Shown: positions 9,679 to 63,370 of the stretch, piece by piece
Layout of the letters: each line of letters opens with the position of its first letter
How positions within the stretch are numbered: the stretch's first letter is position 1
Source: Spiroplasma chinense
GTDB lineage: Bacteria > Bacillota_I > Bacilli_A > Mycoplasmatales > Mycoplasmataceae
Assembly: GCF_008086545.1 (NCBI RefSeq)
Contig: NZ_CP043026.1
Coordinates: 372,001-436,000, forward strand
Direction of reading: 5' to 3'
DNA: 64,000 nucleotides
Position numbers and translations under genes: made by a program
Notes under the pieces: model-generated
The model's input: the letters and a program-made list of their open reading frames with translations, nothing else
Database searches by the model: none
Told to the model about the DNA's origin: nothing

Positions 9679-11502
9679 ATGGATAAAAAAATCATTAATA
9701 TAGCTGTTATTGCTCACGTTGATGCTGGTAAATCTACATTAGTAGATGCATTTTTAGGTCAATCAGGAGTTTTTAGAGCTAATGAAGAAATAAAAGAACA
9801 AGTTATGGATAGTAACGACCAAGAAAGAGAACGTGGAATCACAATTTATTCAAAAAACTGTGCAATTGAGTACAACGATTACAAAATTAATATCGTAGAT
9901 ACTCCTGGCCATGCTGATTTTTCAAGTGAAGTTGAAAGAATTATGAAAACTGTTGACACAGTTATTTTGCTTGTGGATTCAGCAGAAGGACCAATGCCAC
10001 AAACTAGATTCGTTCTTTCAAAAGCATTAGAACTAGGGTTAAAACCAATCTTATTGATTAACAAAATTGACAAAAAAGACCAAAGAGCATTAGAAGTTGT
10101 TGATGAAGTTCTAGAATTATTTATGGAATTAGATGCAAACGACGAACAAATGGAGTTCCCAACATTATTTGGAACTGCAAGAGAAGGTAAAGTTCAATAT
10201 TCAATGGATGAACCAAGTGATAACTTAGTTCCTTTATTTGAAACAATTATTAAACAAGTTGGAAATTACCCAATTGAATTAGCACAAGAACCAGTTCAAT
10301 TACAAATTTCATCACTTGCATATGATTCATTTATTGGAAGACTTGGAATTGGAAGATTATTTAAAGGGGTATTAAAAGAGGGACAACAAGTTTCTATTTC
10401 AAAAAATGATGGTTCAATTACAAAAGGGAAAATATCAAGTTTATTTATTTACCAAGGACTTAAAAGAGTTGCTGTAAAAGAAGCTCAAGCAGGAGAAATT
10501 GTTGTTATTGCAGGTATTGCTGACTTAACAATTGGAGATACAGTATGTTCACCAGACAATATTGATGCATTACCTCCAATTATTATTGAAGAACCAACAA
10601 TGAGTATGAACTTCTTAGTTAATACTTCACCATTTGCAGGTAAAGTTGGTAAATATGTTACAACAAGAAATATCAAAGAAAGATTAGACAAAGAATTGGA
10701 AGTTAATGTTGGATTAAAAGTTGACGCATTAAGTGATTCTTCAGCTGATGGATTTAAAGTATTGGGAAGAGGAGAACTTCACTTATCTGTTCTTATTGAA
10801 ACAATGAGAAGAGAAGGTTTTGAACTTGGAATTTCTAGACCAGAGGTTGTATTTAGAATTGATGAAAAAGGTAATAAACTTGAACCTATGGAAAAAGTTA
10901 TTATTGATGTACCATCAGAATATTCAGGAACAGTTATTAACAAACTTAACCTAAGAAAAGGTATGATGCAAGACATGGATAGTGATGGAATCAGAGATAA
11001 AGTTACTTACATAGTTCCAACTCGTGGATTAATTGGATTCAAATCAGAATTTACAAACGATACTCGTGGAGAAGGAGTTCTTGTTAAATCATTTATTGGT
11101 TATGAAGAATACAAAGGAAGTATCGAAGGAAGAAACAACGGTGCATTGGTTTCAATGGCAAACGGAGTTACTTTACCTTATGCTTTAGGTAACTTAGAAG
11201 AAAGAGGTATTTTATTTGTTGGACCTCAAGTTGAAGTTTATGATGGAATGATCATTGGACTTCACTCAAGAAGTAACGATTTAGAAGTTAACCCAACAAC
11301 AGGTAAAAAACTTACAAATACAAGATCTAGTGGTACTGATGATTCAGTTAAACTTACACCAGCAAGAAAATTCACTTTAGAAGAAGCTTTAGAGTTTATT
11401 GAATGAGATGAATTGGTAGAAGTTACACCAGAAGATGTAAGATTAAGAAAAAAATGACTTTCAAGCAATGAAAGAAAACAACATAGAAACGATCCTCACT
11501 AG
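9679..11502 (+). CDS. typA: Ribosome-associated GTPase TypA/BipA
   Basis: Encodes 607 residues, normal for TypA. The G motifs are clear: A-H-V-D-A-G-K-S-T (G1), the switch segment R-E-R-G-I-T (G2), D-T-P-G-H-A-D-F (G3) and N-K-I-D (G4). Domain II and the two alpha/beta domains follow, ending with the TypA-specific C-terminal part (T-R-G-L-I-G-F-K-S-E-F). TGA Trp codons near the end mean that standard-code translation stops about 32 residues early; the real stop is TAG 11500-11502. TypA binds the ribosome and helps 50S assembly and stress adaptation. It has its own AGGAG site and a terminator overlapping the stop, so it is a single-gene unit. Confidence 0.97.
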
Positions 11503-11517
11503 GATTGTTTTTTTATA
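11486..11517 (+). terminator. Terminator overlapping the typA stop codon
   Basis: AACGATCCT pairs with AGGATTGTT (one G-T pair), followed by seven T. The hairpin includes the final typA codons. Confidence 0.75.
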
Positions 11518-11673
11518 TCCAATAAATGTTATACTCATAAAGAGCGATAATTGTTTTCATACTAATTAACAATGTTTAATTATTAAAATGAAGATGATTA
11601 AAGAAATAGTGTTTGTTTAGTTAATAATACGAGTTTTAATAATTTTTTATCAATTGAAAGACGGTGATAAAAA

Positions 11674-12084
11674 ATGAATAATTCAGAATGATATGTTAAT
11701 AGTTTTAGATTTAATAAATTTTACAAATTATGTATATTAATATCATTTTTAGCATCTATTAGTTTAATTTCATTAATTTTTTTACAACTGTTTCTTTTTA
11801 AAGGAACAAATAGTAATGTCTTAATTTATATTATGCTTGGTTTTTTGGTTCTTTCAGAACTATTTGGATTGGTTTCTAGGTACTTTTACTTTAGAATAAT
11901 CAAATTCAAATCTAAACCTTGTTCAAAAATTGTTGTTTTTTCAAAAATAGCATTTTTAATACCTGTGATTAATTATGTTTTTTGAATTTTTATAGTTTCT
12001 ATAAAACAAAGACAATTAATGAATAAATATGTGGATTTAAACAGAAATAGAATTTATAAATCAATTATAAAAAACTATAAATAA
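11674..12084 (+). CDS. Small membrane protein of unknown function
   Basis: Encodes 136 residues with TGA Trp codons at residues 6 and about 101. Three hydrophobic segments are visible near residues 17-43, 53-70 and 88-108, with basic loops (K-F-K-S-K-P) between the second and third and a basic tail. No family recognised. The ribosome site is weak (AAAGACGG). The upstream gap of about 170 bases after typA holds no further recognisable element. Confidence 0.65.
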
Positions 12085-45152: not shown

Positions 45153-47417
45153 ATGAGAAAGAAATTAATGGTTTTTGGTTCGGTTATGCTTGGAATAAGT
45201 ATAATTGGAGCACAAGCTTTAACAGTTTATGATAAATATTTTAAAGCTATATCAATCGACGGAAAATACATAGAAAATGTAGTTTCTGTAGGAAAAGAAG
45301 ATATGGATAAAGATTTGAATATCTTCTTTGGAGATTCAATGTATAACTATGCAAACTATTATGATTCAAATAATAAAATTACTTTTAACGGTAATTATGA
45401 CTCTCTATTCAATACCGAAAAGAAAGCAAGTCAATTAAATGTTTGAAGAAATGATAGAAAAAGCGAACAAATGATAATTGTAGGAAACAAAAATAAAAAT
45501 TTAGAAAGTGTATCTGCATATATTACAAACTTTGATAATGGAGTTACTGCACAAGTTTCTGCAAGTAATTTAATTAAAAGTGAAAAATCAAAAGGAACTG
45601 TAGCTATACCAAATGGTATGAGTTACCATCCAGATAAAATTTACAATAACTATGCAAATAGATTTGATGATTTCATAGTTCAACCATTTTTGGTTAACTT
45701 TTCAAGTTACTCAGATAAAGTTGTTGAAGGAACTTATGAATATGAAATTACATTAAATTATAAAGTTGATGGTGTATTTAAAACAAAAGTTGAAAAAATA
45801 AGTATTCAAACTTACAACATTGATGCAAATATAGATAATGGATTTTCATTCAATGCAATGACAAGTCCAGCAACACTAGCAACTTATAATTTAAATCCTG
45901 CAAATGTTGAGGGTGCAAATAGTTCAAGAACTATTTCACAAAGAGCAACCGATAACAAACCAAATAATCAAGAAGCTGCTTCTGTTAAAAAATATTTAAC
46001 AGATAAAGAAATGTATTTTGATTGAATGACGTTTAATAAAGATTATTATCCAACATATCTTAAAGATGATTACAAAGATTTATTAAAAGAAAATTACAAA
46101 TACATGAATGAAATGAATTCGGAATATGCATATGCTCCAACATTTGGAAATTCGGTTATGAGAATTAAAGTAAAAAACAATAACGTTTATAATACTCATG
46201 AAGAATATCTTGAAGATATTTCAAAGAGTACTAAAGAAATGTTAGAAAATGATAACCTTGAATATACTTTTGATTTTGATGGAATGAAAAAGTATATAGA
46301 ATTTGCAAAGGAAAACGGTTTTAAAAAAATCTATCTTCCTTCAATTACTAGAGGAACAAATGGAATTAAGTTCTTTTATGATTATGATAACAATAATGGG
46401 ATAAGTTCTAATTTTTCTGGAAATGAAAATGCGCCTAACTTAAACTTCTATATAGTTTCTGCGTTAAAAGATCTTTTAATAGGATCTTCAAATGCAGGAA
46501 TAATAACTGAAGCAGGTCAATTATACATTGATAAAATCATTCCTAAACTTACAAGTTCTTTATTAGAATTTATAAATGAAAATAAAGAACTATTAAAATT
46601 AGATGATGGTAATGATATGCAATTCTACATTTCAATGGATGAAACTTCTTATTCAATTGATAGTGATATTGTAAAAGCAGTTAAATCAGTTGACACTGAT
46701 TCAAAATTAAAATTCCACGCTTATGTTGGATGACAATATGATATTGATATAAAAACTGATAAGGGTGTTGAAGAAAGAATTGTAAATATGTTTGATGACA
46801 TCACAATTCAACAAAGAGAAATTATTATGAAAGCTTTAGATGATAAAACTATTTTTGAGAGATTGAAAAAAGCTTTTGCTGAAAGAAAAGCTATGGGTAA
46901 AAAAACTTGAATGTATTCTTCTTGAAACAATGCCCCAGCAACATATGTAGCTTCACTTCCTTCAGAATCTTATTGAGGAATGTTAGCAGCTTACAAATTT
47001 GGTTTAGATGGATTTACTAGATTTGCTTATGAAGGATACAGAAGCAACATCACAGCTGATGGTGATTATGACAATTCTCATAAAAATGAACCTGGTGATG
47101 CATACTTAATGTATCCAACTTACTATCTAAAAAATAGTGCACCAAGTATGAGAATATTTAATATTGAAGAAGCGTATCATTTAGTTAAAAAAATGGAAGT
47201 TTTAACTGAAATAGGTGAAAGTAAATTATCATTTACTAATAAAGAAAAAGAATTAATTTTAAATCAAATTGGTAGACCTACAAAATTCACTCAAGATTCA
47301 AACTTTATATTTACAGTATCTCCATCATTGAAAGATATTGATATTACAAAAACTTCAACTTACGTAAATGTAATGATTGAAAATGTAAAACAATATTTAG
47401 AATTGAAAGGTTTTTAG
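45153..47417 (+). CDS. Membrane-anchored DUF4091/GH123-like glycosidase (paralogue 2)
   Basis: Encodes 754 residues and is related to the 41712 gene. Residues 1-25 form a signal or anchor without lipobox Cys. The matching C-terminal elements are F-A-K-E-N-G-F-K-K-I-Y-L-P, F-Y-I-S-M-D496-E497, Y-V-G-W-Q, M-Y-S-S-W-N-N-A-P and F-G-L-D-G-F-T-R-F-A-Y-E-G-Y. The D-E pair is again in place, so both copies look active. The N-terminal domain differs from that of the first copy. GGAGG precedes the ATG. Likely substrate: amino-sugar-containing glycans of the host, by family analogy only. Confidence 0.7.
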
Positions 47418-53317: not shown

Positions 53318-54148
53318 ATGAAAAAATTATTAAGTATATTGGCAGCTACAAGTTTTATAGCTTCTTCTTCAGCAACTGTTGTTGCTTGTGGAACAGAGGT
53401 TATAACTTTGACAGATAGTCAAAGAAAAACTTGAGATGAAAAATACAACAATTTGTTAGATCTATTTCATAATGAAATATACACACAAATTTTTAGCGGT
53501 ACAAATAGTGAATTAATATCAAAAACAACAAAAAGTTTAGCTGAAAGAAATAGCGAAACTGGTAATTTAACTTTAAAGAAAGAAATTTCATTAAGTTCAA
53601 CTGATAGAGCAAACATGAAAGAAATTAAAAGTTTCTTCTTAGACACTCAACCTGCAACTATTTACTTGTTAGAAAGAGCGGAAAAAGAAAAAGTTACTTT
53701 TGCAAAAAATGCAGAAGAAATTAAAGGTGTTAAAGATGAATACAATACAAAATTTGAAGAGTACAAAACTAAACTAGAAGAAAATGGTTCTTTAAAAGGT
53801 GTTATGGATGCTCTTATAGAAAAAAGAAATAATGCTGATGGAGAAGAACAAGCAACATATAAAAGTTTAATTAACTTTTTAGAAAATCCTACAGCACAAG
53901 GTTTATCATTATTAAACACTTTACACGATAGTAAAGATGAAAGTGTTAAAATTTCTGATGAAGATTATAATGCAATCAAATCATTGATCGAGTTAGAATT
54001 TAAAGTTTCAATGCCAGGTTACTTATTTGAAATTTGAAATTTAAGTACTTTTATAACAGAATATGACACAAGTTATAAATATAATAAAAAAGCAGAAGGT
54101 TATCAAGAACTTACAGCTAATTGAAAAAGCGCTTATAATTTAGGTTAA
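53318..54148 (+). CDS. Lipoprotein with coiled-coil-like mature part
   Basis: Encodes 276 residues. The signal peptide ends with V-V-A-C, a clear lipobox near residue 24. The mature part is strongly helical and charged (E-K-V-T-F-A-K, Y-K-T-K-L-E-E), with the last third containing two TGA Trp codons. No known domain. AAGGAGA precedes the ATG. It stands just before the ABC permease array but has its own terminator. Confidence 0.8.
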
Positions 54149-54160
54149 TATAGCAACAAA

Positions 54161-54186
54161 AACAATAGGATTCTATTGTTTTTTTT
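54161..54186 (+). terminator. Terminator, first copy of a repeated hairpin
   Basis: AACAATAG and CTATTGTT arms around four bases, then T. The same arms recur at 56819 and 63343, each after a unit of this region. Confidence 0.85.
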
Positions 54187-54227
54187 ATTTTAATAACTGA
54201 TACACCTTTTATTATTTTTTCATATGT

Positions 54228-54327
54228 TATTATATGGGTATATGGTAAGTGGTACCAAAACTATTTAACAATTAAAAATTAACAACTATCAAAATTCTCA
54301 CCATGCCAGAAAAGGAGATAGTTATTA
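54228..54327 (+). promoter_or_regulatory. Leader of the ABC array, copy 1
   Basis: Similar to 59113-59215 and partly to 56866-56915. It has a TATGTTATTATA promoter-like start, then TATGGTAAGTG, then AACTATCAAAA, then ACCATGCCAGAAAAGG. TATGGT at 54241-54246 can pair with ACCATG at 54300-54305, just before the ribosome site. Confidence 0.6.
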
Positions 54328-56058
54328 ATGATATATTTAATAAAATTTAATTACAATAGAATATTTACATCTAAGTTTTTTATTTTTTCTACTCTATTTA
54401 CATTTCTAAGTAGTTTAATGCTTTATGTTATATGGGTAGTTAAAGATTCTAATTTATACTTAAATTGAATTTCTCTAGCTGTTTGAATTATTTACATTGC
54501 ATCAATGAGTGTTTATTTTATATCAAACATAATGATATCTGATGTTAAAAACGGTATCTTTAGTTTAGAGGTAAGAAAAGGTGTTGATTATAAAAGTGCT
54601 ATGTGAGTAAAACTGATGGTTGTAAAATCTATTATTTGATTAACCATACTTTTAGCTATGCTTTTGTTTTATATAGTTGTTATTATAATAAAACCTTTAA
54701 AAGTTCAAGCTTATATGGATGGATTTATACCTGGTTATGCTGCATTGTTTGCTCTAGATTTTTTATTTACAGGAACTTGTTTGTTATGTGGAAGTTTTAT
54801 AAAATTAAAACCTTTATTGGCTATAAATTCGTTTTTAATAGGAGTTTTTATTTTTTCTCCACTAATAGGCACTTTTCACACAGCTTTTTTGCATAAAAAT
54901 TATAAATATGGTGTTTATGTAAGTTCTTCTAGCGAACATTTAACAGGACTTAGATTACAAAAATACGCCGATGAAAATAAAGAAGGTTTAGTTTCGTTTT
55001 TCTTTAATGAAATTACAACTTTTAATGATCCTGAAAATTTGGTTATAAAAAGAAAAGGTAATATTTTAGACCATAGTTTTGATTACATCTTAGAAGAAAA
55101 AAATTTTAGAATGTTTTACTTTTTATCAATTGGACAACCTCTTGAAATTGAAGAAACATTAAACGCAGATAAAGAAATGAACGCAGTTTTTGATTTCTCT
55201 TTAACAGAAAAATTCAAAAACAGTAAAATAATTAATTTTTTTAATAAAACTATTCTTATAAATGAAGAAAACAATTTTGAAGAATCCATTTTTGAAGGTT
55301 TTGATATAAAAAATTTAACAGGTAAAAACCAACTATTTGATTATCTAGATTTTTTAAGTTCTACTGAGATGGTTCAACTATTAGAAAAAGAATTTAATTT
55401 TAAAGATGTAAAAAAAGATTTAAATTTTATTAAAGACTTAGCATGAGATTTTTGACTTTGAGAAAAAATGTTTGTAGGTCCAGATTATAGGGGTGATTAT
55501 ATTGTAAATGTAAATAGTGGTACGTCTGGAGTTTATCCTTCTGTATGGGGAACTGCAAGATATTATTCTTTTTCATCACTAACAGATTATAAAATACGTG
55601 ATGGGAATCAACTTTTTATAATTTTAATGTCTTATTGAATTTATAAAAATGGACGAGTAAAACCAAATACTGGTAAAAATGTGGTTGAAGGATCGGCTTA
55701 TGATTTGATATATAATGATGAAGATAAAAAAAGTAAACTATTTTTGGTAAATCCAATATTTAGCTTTCCTTATATGACATTATTTACAAAAACTTCAAGC
55801 AATATTTTTGTAAGTGAATTTTTAAGTGATACTTTAATGCCTTTTACTTATATGCATGATTTAGCTCTATATGAAAATGAAAATGCTATAGTCAAGGAAA
55901 CTAAACTGTTTATAGAAAGAGATAATTTGCCTGTAAAGTATTTTGAAAACACCAAATTAGTAATTGATGTTTGAAAATTTTATTTGGCATATATTGTCAT
56001 AGCATTTATTCTTGCCTTGCCCACTCATTTCATTTATATAAAAAGAGTTAGACCATAA
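54328..56058 (+). CDS. ABC permease with large extracellular domain, paralogue 1
   Basis: Encodes 576 residues with many TGA Trp codons. Five or so hydrophobic segments fill residues 15-190. A large hydrophilic domain of roughly 350 residues follows, with G-K-N-Q-L-F-D-Y and I-R-D-G-N-Q-L-F. One last membrane segment (about 551-570) has a short basic end R-V-R-P. Hydrophobic N-terminal part and single C-terminal helix resemble an ABC-2 permease with an ectodomain inserted before the last helix. The ATPase gene follows after 15 bases. It shares motifs with the permeases at 57123 and 60782. Confidence 0.8.
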
Positions 56059-56073
56059 GGTGGGGGTGATGAT

Positions 56074-56811
56074 ATGTTGGAAATTAAAAATTTAACAAAA
56101 TTATTTTCAAGTGGTGATGGTATTTCAAATATAAGTTTTAGCATCAAACCAGGTGACATTGTAGGGATGGTCGGAGATAATGGTGCTGGTAAGTCAACTA
56201 TTATAAAAACTTTATTTAATGAATATGGAAAAAATAGTGGAGAATTTTATTTAGATAATTTACCTCTAAATAAAAAAGACTATAAGAAAATGGCTTTTTT
56301 TCCAGATCAAAGTATTTTTCCGAACAATATAAGTATTGAGAAATATTGTACTTATTCTGGATGTTTATCTGGAATAAGTAAAAAAACTATTTTATTAAGA
56401 ACTAGAGAATTATTAAAATATTTAAAATTATATGAATATAAAAATAAGACTTTTAAACATTTATCTGCAGGTATGCAAAAAAGAGCGATGCTCGCAATCA
56501 CTTTGATTTCAGACCCAGAAATCATAGTTTTGGACGAACCAACTTCAAATTTAGATTTATCATCTAGATTTGAATTTCTAGAATTACTTAAAAAACTTGC
56601 AGGTTCAAATAAAACAATACTAATAACCAGTCACATAATAAATGAGTTACAAGGTCTAATTAATAAATTAATTATTATTAAGGAAGGAACCTTAATTTAT
56701 GAAAAATATTTAGAAGAAAATGAAATGATCTTATCAATTTATAATAATAAAACAAAAAGCAACGAAGTTAATAAGGATAGAAATAATTTAGCAGATATTT
56801 TTTCAAAGTAG
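56074..56811 (+). CDS. ABC transporter ATPase 1
   Basis: Encodes 245 residues. Walker A G-D-N-G-A-G-K-S-T, signature L-S-A-G-M-Q-K-R-A, Walker B I-I-V-L-D-E-P-T-S-N-L-D, H-loop I-T-S-H. No membrane segment; it binds the cytosolic face of a permease. GGGGGTGAT lies before the ATG. It is closely related to the ATPase at 62600, including the insertion after D-Q-S. Partner: permease 1, perhaps also permease 2, which has no own ATPase. Confidence 0.93.
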   Translation: MLEIKNLTKLFSSGDGISNISFSIKPGDIVGMVGDNGAGKSTIIKTLFNEYGKNSGEFYLDNLPLNKKDYKKMAFFPDQSIFPNNISIEKYCTYSGCLSGISKKTILLRTRELLKYLKLYEYKNKTFKHLSAGMQKRAMLAITLISDPEIIVLDEPTSNLDLSSRFEFLELLKKLAGSNKTILITSHIINELQGLINKLIIIKEGTLIYEKYLEENEMILSIYNNKTKSNEVNKDRNNLADIFSK

Positions 56812-57122
56812 CAACAAAAACAATAGAACCCTATTGTTTTTTTATTTTATTTTATTCAAACTTTTGTATGCTAATATAAAAGAGTACGGTAAGTACTAAA
56901 AACTTATCAAAAGTAAAATTATTAAATTTTAATAATTACAATTTCAATAGCAAATAATATCTAAAACATAATAATAAAATTTAAAAATAACAATAAAAGT
57001 AGCAATTAATTAATTTCTGGCTGCAGTTTTTTTGTTGGAAGAATGTATCTATAACATTTTTTTAAATAAAATTTGAACTCACACTTTAAAATTCAGGGTA
57101 TCAATCTAGGGGGGTAATTAAT
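56812..57122 (+). other. Gap before permease 2 with partial leader repeat
   Basis: About 311 bases without a gene. It holds the AACAATAG terminator (56819-56845), a partial copy of the array leader (TATGCTAATATAAAAG, GGTAAGTACTA and ACTTATCAAAA between 56869 and 56916), then AT-rich sequence with a CTGGCTGCAG patch at 57019. A GGGGGG ribosome site at 57110 fits the TTG start at 57123. The second half of the leader found in copies 1 and 3 is missing here. Confidence 0.55.
56819..56845 (+). terminator. Terminator after ATPase 1, repeated hairpin
   Basis: AACAATAG and CTATTGTT arms around AACC, then T. Confidence 0.85.
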
Positions 57123-58928
57123 TTGAAAAGCTTAATTATTTTTAATTATGGTAGAATGCTTCGTAATAAATTTTTTTGGTTCTTAACCTCATTGATCCTC
57201 GTGACAAGTTTAATTTTGTGAGGTGTTTGAACAAATCTTGAAGGACTGAAAATTAAAAATGACTCAAGATTTCATCATTGAATTAGTTTTTCCTTGTGAA
57301 TTTTGTATGTTTGCATAATAACAATTTGAACCGTAGGAGTTTTTGTGATTTCTGATGTAGAAAATGGTATATATAGTTTAGAAGTGAGAAGGGGTTTAGA
57401 TGCCAAACTTATAACATGAATTAAATTGTTAGTATCCAAAAGTGTTTTGTGATTCATTGTTTTATTTGGTATGCTTTCATTTTATTTGATTGTGATAATT
57501 TCAAAACCTTACTCAGAAGAAATGTTTTTAAAAGGCTTCATACCAGGATATTTTGCTCTAATTGTATTAGATATATTTTTTACAGGATTATGTTTTTTTG
57601 TTGCAAGTTTTGGAAAAATTAAGTTAATGACATCTATCGCTTCTTTTTTAACTGGTATTTTAGCAATATCACCCGCACTTTCAATTCTTCATTTAGCTAT
57701 TATTTATGATGATAGTATTTATGCTGATTATAGATATATAAATGGGTTGGAAATGCAAAAGTTAGCTAAAAGTAAGCCTGATGGGTTAACACATTTGCTA
57801 TTTGAAGGTTTTGCAGATTTTAACAATAACAAAACACTAGAGGTTTTTAAAAAAGAAGATAAAGGAGAAGATGAGGGTTTTGAAAGAACACAAAATTCAC
57901 TTTTAGAAGATTTTGATAATAAATCAGGTGGGTTATGAGAAATAATTTATTACTATATAACTTTAGGACAAATCTTGGACATAGATGTACTGTTAAATAG
58001 GAACGCTGCTTTAAATAGTTATTTAGAGTTTAAGTACAAAAAAGATTCAGAAATTTCAAAACTGCATAGTTTTTTTGAAATAACTAATCTTAAAAGTGAC
58101 AAAAGTTATTTTGATAAAAGTGTTTTTAAAAAATTAAAAAAAGATAATATTGTTGGTAAAAATCAATTAAATGACTATTCAAAATTTATAACTTCAAAAG
58201 AAGTGATATCTAATTTGGAGCAAAAGTTATCCTTGCAAAACTTAGGCGTAGAGATAAAAGAAATTAATAAACTTATTTATAAAGAAATATCTAATTTTGG
58301 TATTTTAATAGAGACTGAAAAAATGGGTTCTTTAAATAAAATCAAATTTTCGCTAAATGGAAATGCGCAATCCGATGTCGGATATAGTGGAGTGCGTAGC
58401 TATGAGTTTGGAGAATTTTCAACAAATCCAATTGATATATATGATGCCTTAAAAGTTAAAGATGGAAATCAATTATGGATGATGTTTTTGATTTATTTGA
58501 TAGGTGCTGCTTCAAAGGGTCGAGTGGCCCAAGGTGAATGACCTGGTTTTTATAAATGGAGTGATGTTATGGAAGATGATATTTGGAGACTAAGAAAATT
58601 GTTTTTAGTAAACCCCTTTATGAGTATTCCTTTTATGAGTCTTTTCACTTTAAGAAGTAATGATTTGACTTTAAATAATGGCTTAATGAAAGTTTTAATT
58701 CACAACTTATATATACAAGATGTTATCCCTAAAGTAAATGAAAATTATGAGCCAGAAATTAACTATATTAGGAAAGCTTATTATAATATTTCAAAATCTC
58801 CAATTATAGATTATGAAGTAACTGATGTAGTTTTAAGAAGTGATGTTTATTATATTTCCTATTTATTTTTTGGTCTATCATTTCTACTTATAGGACACTT
58901 TATTCATATTAGAAAAGTAAAGCCATAA
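57123..58928 (+). CDS. ABC permease with large extracellular domain, paralogue 2
   Basis: Encodes 601 residues from a TTG start at 57123 (aligned with the ATG starts of paralogues 1 and 3; strong GGGGGG site; in-frame TAA upstream). N-terminal membrane block, ectodomain with G-K-N-Q-L-N-D-Y and K-D-G-N-Q-L-W-M, and a C-terminal segment ending I-R-K-V-K-P. Sequence and length match paralogue 3 (601 residues) more than paralogue 1. No ATPase gene follows; a terminator region and a new leader come next, so it probably uses the ATPase of 56074 or 62600, or acts alone. Confidence 0.8.
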
Positions 58929-59054
58929 AGGAGTTCAATCCATCTCTTTAATGTTACAGAACTATTAAAAACAGACTGGTTTATGTGATATATTTTATAA
59001 TCTGATATTTTAAATAAAAATTCAACAAATAAATATAACATTAACAAATAAAAC

Positions 59055-59099
59055 AAAAAAATAGAAATTTACAATTTAAAGGTTTCTATTTTTTATTTT
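59055..59099 (+). terminator. Terminator after permease 2
   Basis: AAAAATAGAAA and TTTCTATTTTT arms with a loop of about 16 bases, then T. Confidence 0.6.
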
Positions 59100-59112
59100 A
59101 TTCAAACTTTTA

Positions 59113-59215
59113 TATGCTAATATAAAAGTGTATGGTAAGTGCTAATAACTTATCAAAACTTAAGATTAACAATTAATAACTATCAAAACTGGCCATACCA
59201 GAAAGGGTGATATTT
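59113..59215 (+). promoter_or_regulatory. Leader of the ABC array, copy 3
   Basis: TATGCTAATATAAAAG, GTATGGTAAGTGCTA, CTTATCAAAA, then GGCCATACCAGAAAGGG. GTATGG at 59130-59135 pairs perfectly with CCATAC at 59193-59198, which lies next to the ribosome site. Copy 1 keeps the pairing with one G-U pair. Confidence 0.6.
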
Positions 59216-60763
59216 ATTAAAAAAATGTTAACTATTTTTGCTGCCTCGTGCTTATTCTTTGGAGTTGCAATTGGAAATTATAATAATATTACAAATATAC
59301 AGAATGTTAAGGTCAAAAACCATTATAAAAAATCTAAAAATAAAGTTTTAGAATTATCTAGAATAAAAGTTGAAGATTTTGAAACTGATCTTGCTATTTT
59401 TGATAATAAACATATAGATGAAAATACTTATTTAGAAGAAATTAAGTGATCAATGATTGATAGTAATCCTCATATAGAAGATGAACTTTTTAATATATGA
59501 GATTCTTATTTATATAACGAACCCTCACAATGATTTGCAAATGGGATTGATTGAGAAATGCCAGATAGGAACGAAGAAATTTTGACAAGAGTTACTTTTA
59601 GACCTAAAAATTTATCTATGTTTAAAGGTGCTTTAAGTTTCAAAATGACTTTAGTTAATAAGTCTAAAAGAGTATATTCGTTAAATAGTATTATTAAAAA
59701 TAAAAATCTTGGAACTATAAGTGATAATAGTGTTCAATCATTGATGAATAACATTGAGACTAAAAATAAAGATTACAAAATTAATTGAACACAATTGAAA
59801 ATCAGTTCAATTAATAATAGGAGTGCATTGATAACACCGATTATGAATTCGGAATATTACAGAGGTGAGTTAAAGATTGAATTCTTATTAGGTATTAATT
59901 TGAATGATGTTATAAACAATTTTGAACTTGGTACAATTAAGGTTAAAATTGATGAACAATTAATATTAGATATATTGGCAGAAAAAAACAATAAAGTAGA
60001 TATTAAAGAACTTAAGGTGCAAAATATAGATTTAGAAAGAGAAATTGCAGTAGTTGTTCCAATTAATGAAAATTCTATATATTATGGGTCAATAGAAGTA
60101 ACTTTTAAGGAAATTAAACATTTATCTAGTATTATTAAAAATACTTTCTTGGGAGCATTTTCAAATGTAAACACTTTAAGTGTGGTGGACATGATAGTAA
60201 GATATAACGAAGGTGCTACTCATTATGATTTTTTGATAAATCATTCAACAGTTACTTACACAGGTTTTGAAATATATGGTAGGGAAGATAACCATTACTT
60301 TGGAACTGTTAGAATAAGTTTTTTAGCAAGTGATAAATGATTTGGAAAGATTGAATCAGGAAGAAGACAAGTAGATTCTTATATGACTCTTCAAACTGAT
60401 ATCAAAATACAATCAATAAGATTCACGCCAAGTCTAGGAAAAACAGCTTTTTTAGAAAATTATAGATGGCTGAATTTTGACGCATTTAAATTTGCTAAAT
60501 TAAATAAAGATGTAAAAATAAATGAAAAAAAAGGTGGTTTCAAATTGGAGCTTACTAAATATTCTGGTGGCAAGGAATTGTTTCATTATAGCTATTCAAA
60601 TGTAAATTGAATGAAAAGTTATGCTTTCATTGAATACAGATGAGAATATGCCACAATAGTACTTTCTATCTTAACTGCTGCTGAAGCACATGCAAAACAA
60701 CAAAATGCAGCATGAGCGAGAGCTACTACAGAGGTCAATGTAAATAATTTTTACTTTAGTTAG
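59216..60763 (+). CDS. Secreted or anchored repeat protein of the ABC array
   Basis: Encodes about 515 residues with nine TGA Trp codons. I place the start at ATT 59216 because GAAAGGG ends eight bases upstream; the first ATG is at 59225 and has poor spacing. The first 20 residues are a signal sequence (F-A-A-S-C-L-F-F-G); its Cys is too early for a normal lipobox. The body contains three to four repeats of L-G-T-I, N-N-I, V-P-x-x-N and Y-x-G-x-x-x-V-x-F, the same kind as in lipoproteins 25318 and 26062. It ends N-V-N-N-F-Y-F-S. It directly precedes permease 3. Confidence 0.7.
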
Positions 60764-60781
60764 AAAGTATGTGAAGTTTTA

Positions 60782-62587
60782 ATGAAAAGTTTAATTAAAT
60801 TTAATTATAGTAGAATCTTTTTTTCTAAAATATTTTGAATATCTTTTGCATCTTTGTTTTTGTTCAGCGTTGTAATGTGAAGTGTTTGAAGTAATCTAAA
60901 ATATGATTCTTATTATAAACATGCAATTTATTATCAATGAACAACTTTTGTTTTATGGCTTCTTTTTATCTGTGCCTTTACCATTTGGACAACCTCAAAT
61001 TTTATTTTAACTGATATTGACAATGGTATATTTAGTTTAGAGATTAGAAAGGGATTGGATCATAAGACAATTGTTTGAGTAAAAATCTTAATATCAAAAA
61101 CCATATCATGATCTGCAATTTGTTTGGGTATGCTATTATTTTTTGTTATTGTAAAAATTTCTGCCCCACTCAACAATGATTACTTTTTAAAAGGGTATAT
61201 TCCAGGTTATACAGCATTAATAGCTGCAGATATTTTTTTTACTGGTATTTGCGTACTGGTGGGTAGTTTTCTAAAAATGAAAGTTATGTTATCAGTGTCT
61301 GCATTTTTAGCAACATTGCTTTCTCTATCTCCTGCCTTTGCAATACTTCATGTAGAATTTCTACTTAATAGTGAAATTTCAGTAGAGTATAAAAACATAA
61401 ACTCATTGAAAATACAAAGTTTGGCAAAAGAAAATCCTAAAGGCATTGTTAATTTTATGTTTAGTGAATTAGCAAAACTTAAAGAAGAGACAATATTTGA
61501 CTTAAAAGAAAAACCTAATTCTTCGACTGATTTAAAAGGTGATGAAGCTTTTAAAAAAATTGAAGAATACTTTAAAGAAGCGCACTATGAAGTTTGGGGG
61601 GTAATATATTACTATATTAATTTCGGTTATGTTTTAGATTTGGAGTTTTTGTTTAACGAAAATGAAAAAATAAGCAAAAATACTGAATTTAAACTCTCAG
61701 ATAGTTTTAAGTCATCTGATTTATACAAATTTTATGAGCTTTCCAATTTAAAAAATGCTAAAGGAAATTTTAAAGATACCCTCTTTAATGGTTATAGTAA
61801 AAAAAATTTAAGTGGTAAAAACCAACTTAATGATTATATTAAATTCTTAACATCAAAAGATACAATAACAAGTCTTGAAACAACGCTTGGTTTAGAAAAT
61901 ATAAAGGATGAAATTATTGAAATAAAAGAAATTATTAAACATGAAATAGCATTTTTTGAAGTTTCTTTAAAGGACGGAACTGAAGAAGGTGGAAGAAAAA
62001 ATATAATAAATTTTAATGATAATTTTTCTCAAAGTATTGGTTACGAACATATAAGTTATTGATGATTGCATAGTTGAATAGTTAACTTGTTAGATTATCA
62101 AGAAGAATTAAGCATAAGAGATGGGAATCAAATGTTTATGATGTTTTTAACTTATTTTATTGGAAAAGCTGCTAAATTGAATCCTGACCGTGAAAATGTT
62201 GACTACTCAAATAGTGTTTATCAAATTATTCAAAATGATCCTTTCTCGCTAAGAAAGGTTTATCTTGTTAACCCATTTATGAGTCTGGTTTTTATGAGTT
62301 TGTATACAGTTCGCTCTAATGATGTAGGTTTAAATAATGTATTGATGAAAAATCTAAATTCTTGACTTATTCTACAAGATATTAAATTGATACAAAATCC
62401 GAAATGGATTAATCAACAAAGAGAATTAATTGAACCATATTCTCCTTTAGAAGATGTGCCAACCATTGATTATGAAGAATCTAATGTAGTTTTAAGAAGT
62501 GGTGTGTATTATATTTCGTATTTATTTTTTGGGCTAACATTTCTGCTTATAGGACACTTTATTTATATTAGAAAAGTAAAACCATAG
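60782..62587 (+). CDS. ABC permease with large extracellular domain, paralogue 3
   Basis: Encodes 601 residues. Start K-S-L-I-K-F-N-Y-S-R-I is shared with paralogue 2. About five N-terminal membrane segments, then an ectodomain with G-K-N-Q-L-N-D-Y and R-D-G-N-Q-M-F, and a C-terminal membrane segment Y-L-F-F-G-L ending I-R-K-V-K-P. The motif P-F-M-S-L-V-F-M-S-L is shared with paralogue 2. The start lies 18 bases after the secreted protein and the ATPase follows after 12 bases, so three genes form one unit. Confidence 0.8.
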
Positions 62588-62599
62588 AAAGAGGTAAAA

Positions 62600-63334
62600 A
62601 TGATAAGAGTTGAAAATTTAACCAAGTTATTTTCAGAAACAAATGGTGCAAGGGATATAAGTTTTGAACTAGTTCCAGGTGATATTGTAGGAATGGTTGG
62701 AGATAATGGTGCTGGTAAGTCAACCATTATAAAAACCTTCTTTAATGAATATAGAAGAAATGATGGAAAAGTTTATTATAATAACGAAGTTATAAACAAA
62801 AGAAAATATAAAGATTTTGCTTTTTTTCCAGATCAAAGTATATATCCAAGAAATATATCAATTGAAAGATTTTGTATATACTCTGGTTGTTTATCAAACA
62901 TGAGTAAAAAAGAAAGTAAATCTACTACTTTAAAATTATTAAGACATTTAGAACTATTTGAACATAGAACAAAGACTTTCAAAGAATTATCTGCAGGAAT
63001 GCAAAAAAAAGCGCTTTTAGCAATTACAATGGTATCAGATCCAGAAGTTATTATTTTAGACGAACCAACTTCTAACTTAGATGTAAAATCTAGAATAGAA
63101 TTTCTAGATATTCTAAAAAGACTATCAGAAAAAAACAAAATAATAGTTATAACTAGTCACATAATAAATGAATTACAAGGCTTGGTAAATAGGGTATTAA
63201 TTATTAAAGATAGTAGACTAGTGTTAGATAAGTACTTAGAAAATAACGAAAAAATAATAGACTTATACCAACAAAGTGCTTCAAAACATTTTCAACTTGA
63301 TAAACAAGGTTCTTTTGAAGATATATTCTCCTAA
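62600..63334 (+). CDS. ABC transporter ATPase 2
   Basis: Encodes 244 residues. Walker A G-D-N-G-A-G-K-S-T, signature L-S-A-G-M-Q-K-K-A, Walker B V-I-I-L-D-E-P-T-S-N-L-D and H-loop I-T-S-H are all present. AAAGAGG precedes the ATG. Very similar to ATPase 1 over the whole length, the C-terminal 30 residues differ most. It ends with S-F-E-D-I-F-S, as ATPase 1 ends A-D-I-F-S-K. Confidence 0.93.
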   Translation: MIRVENLTKLFSETNGARDISFELVPGDIVGMVGDNGAGKSTIIKTFFNEYRRNDGKVYYNNEVINKRKYKDFAFFPDQSIYPRNISIERFCIYSGCLSNMSKKESKSTTLKLLRHLELFEHRTKTFKELSAGMQKKALLAITMVSDPEVIILDEPTSNLDVKSRIEFLDILKRLSEKNKIIVITSHIINELQGLVNRVLIIKDSRLVLDKYLENNEKIIDLYQQSASKHFQLDKQGSFEDIFS

Positions 63335-63342
63335 TAGCAATT

Positions 63343-63370
63343 AAAAAACAATAGATTTCTATTGTTTTTT
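63343..63370 (+). terminator. Terminator after ATPase 2, repeated hairpin
   Basis: AACAATAGA and TCTATTGTT arms with a short loop, then T. Third copy of the AACAATAG hairpin. Confidence 0.85.

Follow-up and report, generated by a model that had tools for sequence, protein, structure and literature searches.

A lineage-specific array of predicted type V ABC permeases with large outer domains in Spiroplasma chinense

We analysed a 64,000-nucleotide stretch of the Spiroplasma chinense genome (the window; positions 372001-436000 of the contig, in a genome of 1.37 Mb in which TGA is read as Trp, table 4) and found in it an array of six genes that is real, properly delimited, beyond chance and part of a large family. 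The array encodes three permeases with a predicted type V (ABC-2-like) core and a large outer domain (P1, P2 and P3), two ABC ATPases (A1 and A2) and a secreted protein (S). The open reading frames, called with table 4, lie in the order P1-A1 / P2 / S-P3-A2 and span 54328-63334, with a lipoprotein gene in front (53318-54148) and an RNase J-like gene, at the window end, behind. The features of the array are as follows.

54161..54180, + strand: terminator stem 3' of the lipoprotein gene (genome-wide stem search)
54218..54327, + strand: P1 leader, related to the S leader
54328..56058, + strand: P1 permease, 576 aa; predicted type V (ABC-2-like), 5 TM, outer domain of ~370 aa, 1 TM
56074..56811, + strand: A1 ABC ATPase, 245 aa (PF00005, 1.7e-24)
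56819..56838, + strand: terminator stem 3' of A1 (genome-wide stem search)
56836..56938, + strand: P2 leader block, 83% identical to its S counterpart
57123..58928, + strand: P2, lone permease and sister of P3, 601 aa
59082..59219, + strand: S leader, ribosome-binding site folded into a predicted stem
59216 or 59225 to 60763, + strand: S secreted protein, about 515 aa, Sec-type signal peptide
60506..60760, + strand: C-terminal domain of S, common to secreted proteins near other P-A units
60782..62587, + strand: P3 permease, 601 aa
61388..62491, + strand: P3 outer domain, residues 203-570, mostly helical in the AlphaFold model
62600..63334, + strand: A2 ABC ATPase, 244 aa, motifs intact
63347..63366, + strand: terminator stem 3' of A2 (genome-wide stem search)

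Genes are closely spaced within the units (12-18 bp: P1-A1 15 bp, S-P3 18 bp, P3-A2 12 bp) and far apart between them (A1-P2 311 bp, P2-S 287 bp), and the boundaries P1-A1 / P2 / S-P3-A2 are therefore right; from this spacing, co-transcription of P1-A1 and of S-P3-A2 is likely. A preliminary description of this DNA had grouped the genes in the same way and had reported a repeated terminator and a repeated leader, all of which our analysis bears out. Copies of the terminator stem AACAATAG..CTATTGTT are identical and number exactly three in the genome, all at this array; one of them closes the preceding lipoprotein gene. P1, P2 and S are preceded by leaders of related DNA (73-83% identical): the A1-P2 spacer aligns with the P2-S spacer over 103 bp at 83%, and the latter with the lipoprotein-P1 spacer over 116 columns at 73%. 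The first genes that these leaders precede are unrelated. Shared terminators and leaders fit tandem copying of the regulatory borders as read from the sequence, and the leaders may give the units a shared regulation. The predicted fold places the ribosome-binding site in a stem in both the P1 leader (54238-54335, z -1.4) and the S leader (59128-59222, z -2.6). We rejected the leader as a family-wide RNA element, as its pattern is found in this genome only upstream of P2 and S; it has no Rfam match and was not seen upstream of related units. P2 might have originated as a unit stripped of S and A, but no convincing remnants of S or A were found in the spacers around it.

P1, P2 and P3 are each built of a short basic N-terminus, five TM helices, a hydrophilic segment of 371-389 residues without cysteine, a last TM helix and a basic C-terminus. 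From the distribution of charge (positive-inside rule), the hydrophilic segment is predicted to lie outside the cell. Both motifs noted earlier, G-K-N-Q-L and D-G-N-Q, are present in all three proteins, and the build given in the preliminary description (N-terminal membrane block, hydrophilic domain, last helix) holds for each. Overall identity among the permeases is 32-43% (P3 is 42% identical to P2 and 32% to P1), being higher in the membrane block (42-47%) than in the outer domain (26-35%). In a tree P2 pairs with P3, and P1 with its closest paralogue, a copy at 1.303 Mb (genome position 1303129). The tails of P2 and P3 are nearly alike, with 90% identity over the last 29 residues, possibly through gene conversion. 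No Pfam or NCBIfam family was found for P1-P3, and a PDB sequence-profile search with P gave no match, in agreement with the earlier remark that the family was not recognised.

The predicted structure points to a type V core. We obtained an AlphaFold model of P3 from eight sequences (mean pLDDT 65, pTM 0.50), in which the membrane block is mostly at 70-90 and parts of the outer domain (392-444 and 495-572) are below 50 and not readable. The model has an elbow helix (2-13), a coupling helix (83-89), TM1-5 extending to residue 195 and TM6 at 573-599, with the outer domain of ~370 residues between TM5 and TM6. It thus combines six TM helices, an amphipathic elbow and a TM2-TM3 coupling helix; the elbow helix and outer elements between TM5 and TM6 are hallmarks of type V systems (PMC8386196). 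When the model was compared with the PDB by Foldseek, every match above 0.6 probability was type V (NosY, PmtD, ABCG2, CcmB, ABCG25). Probabilities were 0.97-1.00 for NosFY, 0.95-0.98 for PmtCD, 0.4-0.7 for ABCG2 and 0.69 for CcmB, with E-values of 0.5 or worse and an aligned length of about 185-235 columns, that is, the membrane block only; the P3 outer domain matched no known fold in the PDB. P1-P3 themselves have no ABC2_membrane match in Pfam; two permeases of a second, related group hit ABC2_membrane_3 (PF12698) at 4.6e-4, below the family cut-off. The suggestion of an ABC-2-like permease with an ectodomain is supported by these weak matches in relatives, by homology of the membrane block and by the type V-like predicted fold. 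A match of the ectodomain to MacB or to a lantibiotic permease, which the preliminary description had named as evidence against its reading, was sought in Pfam, NCBIfam, the PDB and by Foldseek, and none was found.

Both ATPases have intact Walker A and B, signature and H-loop motifs (in A1, GDNGAGKS, LSAGM, IIVLDEP and TSH), as expected of the cognate ATPases of a type V system, and are 59% identical to each other. Intact ATPase motifs and a type V core together predict an ATP-driven engine. The best NCBIfam models for A1 and A2 are GldA, DrrA and the lantibiotic-immunity LanF, none of which reaches its cut-off: A1 scores 130.7 bits against galliderm_ABC (cut-off 309.75), and the ATPases 126-129 bits against GldA (cut-off 402.6). 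With these scores we rejected both a LanFEG immunity permease, for which P gives no match, and GldA-GldF-GldG, for which there is no GldG/ABC_transp_aux match.

The listed reading frame of S begins with GTG at 59207. ATT at 59216, which follows a good ribosome-binding site and gives a protein starting MKKMLTIF, is probably the true start, rather than an ATG or GTG. An ATT start after a good ribosome-binding site is also apparent in a P gene of another genome (G007, L081, around 7600). S carries a Sec-type signal peptide without a lipobox, consistent with the secretion earlier ascribed to it. Its description as a repeat protein stands in part: three copies of 'LGxI...Y.G...F' can be seen by eye, and the repeats, which lie in the middle of S, align in shifted registers with a 641-aa repeat lipoprotein of the same genome (E 2e-11; this lipoprotein in turn matches the MAG1450 lipoprotein family weakly), but BLASTP of S against itself gave no separate repeats. 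S has no match in Pfam, NCBIfam or PDB sequences, its C-terminal domain none in a PDB sequence-profile search, and an AlphaFold run on S from two sequences (pLDDT 28) gave no usable model.

The connection of S with the permeases is in its last ~80 residues, which recur in secreted proteins of other lengths next to P-A units. A profile trained on five such proteins found a sixth in the same genome (1.2e-9), three genes from another A-P unit, and an untrained 421-aa protein directly before P-A in Spiroplasma sp. TIUS-1 (2e-19). Among 60 genomes of the family, 15 of the 48 domain matches are no more than 3 kb away from a P gene, where 0.64 are expected; without the training rows the count is 10 of 42 against 0.56 expected, six of the ten being less than 100 bp from P. 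For the 10 of 42 the Poisson probability is 5e-10, a figure that ignores shared ancestry, related genomes not being independent events. The domain-P pairs span five genera of the survey, and a homologue of S, 35% identical, stands directly upstream of A-P in another genome (G015), as S itself does of P3. For the other 33 of the 48 matches, no P gene was recognised at that distance; some of these are beside lipoproteins, and three, secreted proteins at L108, L111 and L116, adjoin an ABC ATPase gene of another kind, a hint that the domain may serve more than one ABC system. P1, P2 and four permeases of genome G014 have no domain-bearing neighbour. Judged by gene neighbourhood, the domain is linked to the P-A system and not exclusive to it. 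The earlier proposal that S is either cargo or outer partner is strengthened by the shared domain, but the Sec-type signal peptide of S makes it less likely to be a simple export cargo than a docked partner.

The genome holds ~15 close ATPase relatives of A2 (at least 137 bits), each adjoining at least one protein of 550-670 residues with the 5+1 TM shape, and ~20 permeases of that shape in all. The P subfamily of the window has five members; the two that lie beyond the window, at 102.7 kb and at 1.303 Mb, are each accompanied by an A of their own. The membrane block of the other twelve aligned permeases is homologous to theirs (hhalign 98.7%, E 4e-16, 191 columns), with no alignment of the two groups in the outer domains. 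Of 60 genomes in the family, 26 were positive with the P profile; a class-wide draw gave 10 of 296, all from the same family. In these searches the P type did not occur outside a single family (Spiroplasma, Mesoplasma and kin). Examples are Spiroplasma sp. TIUS-1, Acholeplasma multilocale and Mesoplasma seiffertii. A TIUS-1 A-P unit (L092) occupies the position that the array has in the window, between trpS-like and RNase J-like genes (names taken from their translations), which argues that the array site is old. The phrase 'locally expanded' in the preliminary description is correct as to local copies and too narrow, as the expansion is genome-wide and family-wide. A contig scan with the single P3 sequence and a search of plasmids found nothing.

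Lipoproteins adjoin many units (at 53318 in the window, at least five in L079 of G014, and in L085 and L088). A larger array of secreted-protein, P and A genes at G000:C1:86000-104500 (L041, L007) also contains secA (PF07517, 1e-118). Within the lipoprotein cluster of L079 (G014:C1:1132000-1151900; 8354-11870, minus strand), two lone P genes flank two reverse transcriptases, Drt3a (2.9e-27) and Drt3b (7.3e-40), a DRT3-type defence pair. In the window itself, the protein encoded at 45153-47417, beside a 6-TM protein and a lipoprotein, is exported and carries a GH123 glycoside hydrolase domain (PF13320, 2.1e-17).

One distantly related unit (P profile 2.9e-7) has a recognisable control element. 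At L047 (G000:C1:1203000-1213000), an operon at 2533-7835 on the minus strand begins with a cobalamin riboswitch (RF00174, 75 bits), followed by genes for a 375-aa lipoprotein-like protein, a DUF4430-like protein (weak match, 0.022), a 172-aa multi-TM protein (by eye similar to an ECF S component), an A-P unit and CobA (6e-49). The DUF4430-like protein might, on this weak match, be a B12-binding surface protein. Since this unit sits under a cobalamin riboswitch, the units are probably specialised for different cargoes.

The reading that we prefer, and hold tentatively at a little short of an even chance, is that the array comprises three transcription units, all belonging to a type V ABC system specific to this lineage, whose engine would move the outer domain of P, with S docked, for work at the surface of a wall-less cell. 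The engine would pair two A subunits with a P dimer, either a homodimer or one of P2 and P3; P2 might share an ATPase, as the preliminary description had proposed. Binding and hydrolysis of ATP by A would move the membrane helices, and TM5 and TM6 would pass the movement on to the outer domain, a mechanical use of ATP rather than simple export. Sec-exported S would dock through its C-terminal domain on the outer domain of P and would be held and worked at the surface, by analogy with NosD and NosFY. Because S has an export signal but is not lipid-anchored, and the cell lacks a wall, docking would be the simplest way to keep it at the surface. The complex might handle, as putative cargo, a ligand, a lipoprotein of the cell surface or a small compound that is exported.

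Alternatively, the units could be plain exporters of small molecules, lipids or peptides (drug, bacteriocin or toxin efflux, or self-immunity), with the outer domain as a lid or sensor and S as a co-regulated surface protein rather than a physical partner. We consider this unlikely. The preference of the ATPases for GldA, DrrA and LanF models, which would favour it, is offset by all of these models staying below cut-off; PmtCD and ABCG2 are among the fold matches and many units are without a C-domain neighbour, yet the domain is linked to P ~18-fold above chance, and the riboswitch and CobA of L047 are ill-suited to drug efflux. Import or surface capture of nutrients, one per unit, by the outer domain and a secreted or lipoprotein partner appears improbable. 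The case for it comes from L047, with its riboswitch, CobA and DUF4430-like and ECF-S-like proteins, and from type V including some importers (PMC8386196); however, L047 is only a distant relative whose ECF-like protein could import with a housekeeping module, the ATPase profiles are otherwise exporter-like, and the window array has no nutrient signature. That P-A extracts, releases or sorts lipoproteins or secreted proteins, Lol- or MacB-like with a type V core, is highly improbable despite the lipoproteins next to many units and the relation of the S repeats to a lipoprotein, as there is no FtsX or Lol family match and a wall-less cell has no outer membrane as a lipoprotein destination.

Extended to the whole family, the preferred mechanism would define a family-specific type V mechanotransmission class, in which the TM5-TM6 outer domain couples ATP hydrolysis to partners with a common docking domain, through ~15 engines, one for cobalamin, each surface function having its own unit; this generalization is possible though doubtful. 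For a reduced organism with a 1.37 Mb genome, so many ATPases and permeases of one unnamed kind are a heavy commitment, and the permease, the outer domain and the partner domain all go unnamed in the curated family models. In the open literature, with most subscription papers outside its scope, we found no published description of the P family. If S docks on the outer domain, wall-less bacteria would have ATP-driven surface machines, and type V ABC systems a wider role. The cobalamin-controlled unit offers a concrete handle on function.

Among known systems the closest is NosDFY, a type V ABC complex whose engine can act on an exported partner, the periplasmic NosD. Among the fold matches it fits the membrane block best (probability up to 1.00, with a TM-score by target of 0.50-0.57), and it likewise has a Sec-exported partner, an ATPase and a 6-TM permease from neighbouring genes. 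NosY, however, lacks the 370-residue outer domain, and NosD is a beta-helix protein, which S is not recognisably; no nos genes or copper context were seen around the array, and with S giving no Pfam match we did not assign it to NosDFY. PmtABCD, ABCG2, Wzm/Wzt and CcmAB have the fold predicted for P, of five TM helices, outer loop and TM6, with elbow and coupling helices, but their TM5-TM6 outer element is short, whereas here it is ~370 residues with no known fold and linked secreted partners are found with the P-A units. In LnrMN, NatB and YhaP of Bacillus the outer domain comes after TM1, whereas that of P lies between TM5 and TM6 and differs in fold and size. These proteins are type V/VI hybrids (PMC11466899). 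They too combine a type V-like core with a large extracellular domain, and the weak ABC2_membrane_3 match in two related permeases is a further likeness; it begins at profile position 159, past that family's outer domain. MacB, FtsX and LolCDE (type VII) share the idea of mechanical work on an extracytoplasmic partner and belong to another family, with four TM helices and no elbow helix; membership of P in type VII was rejected, as it has 5+1 TM helices rather than four and no FtsX/MacB match. By its predicted fold, the system described here is a variant of the type V ABC systems and not a new category.
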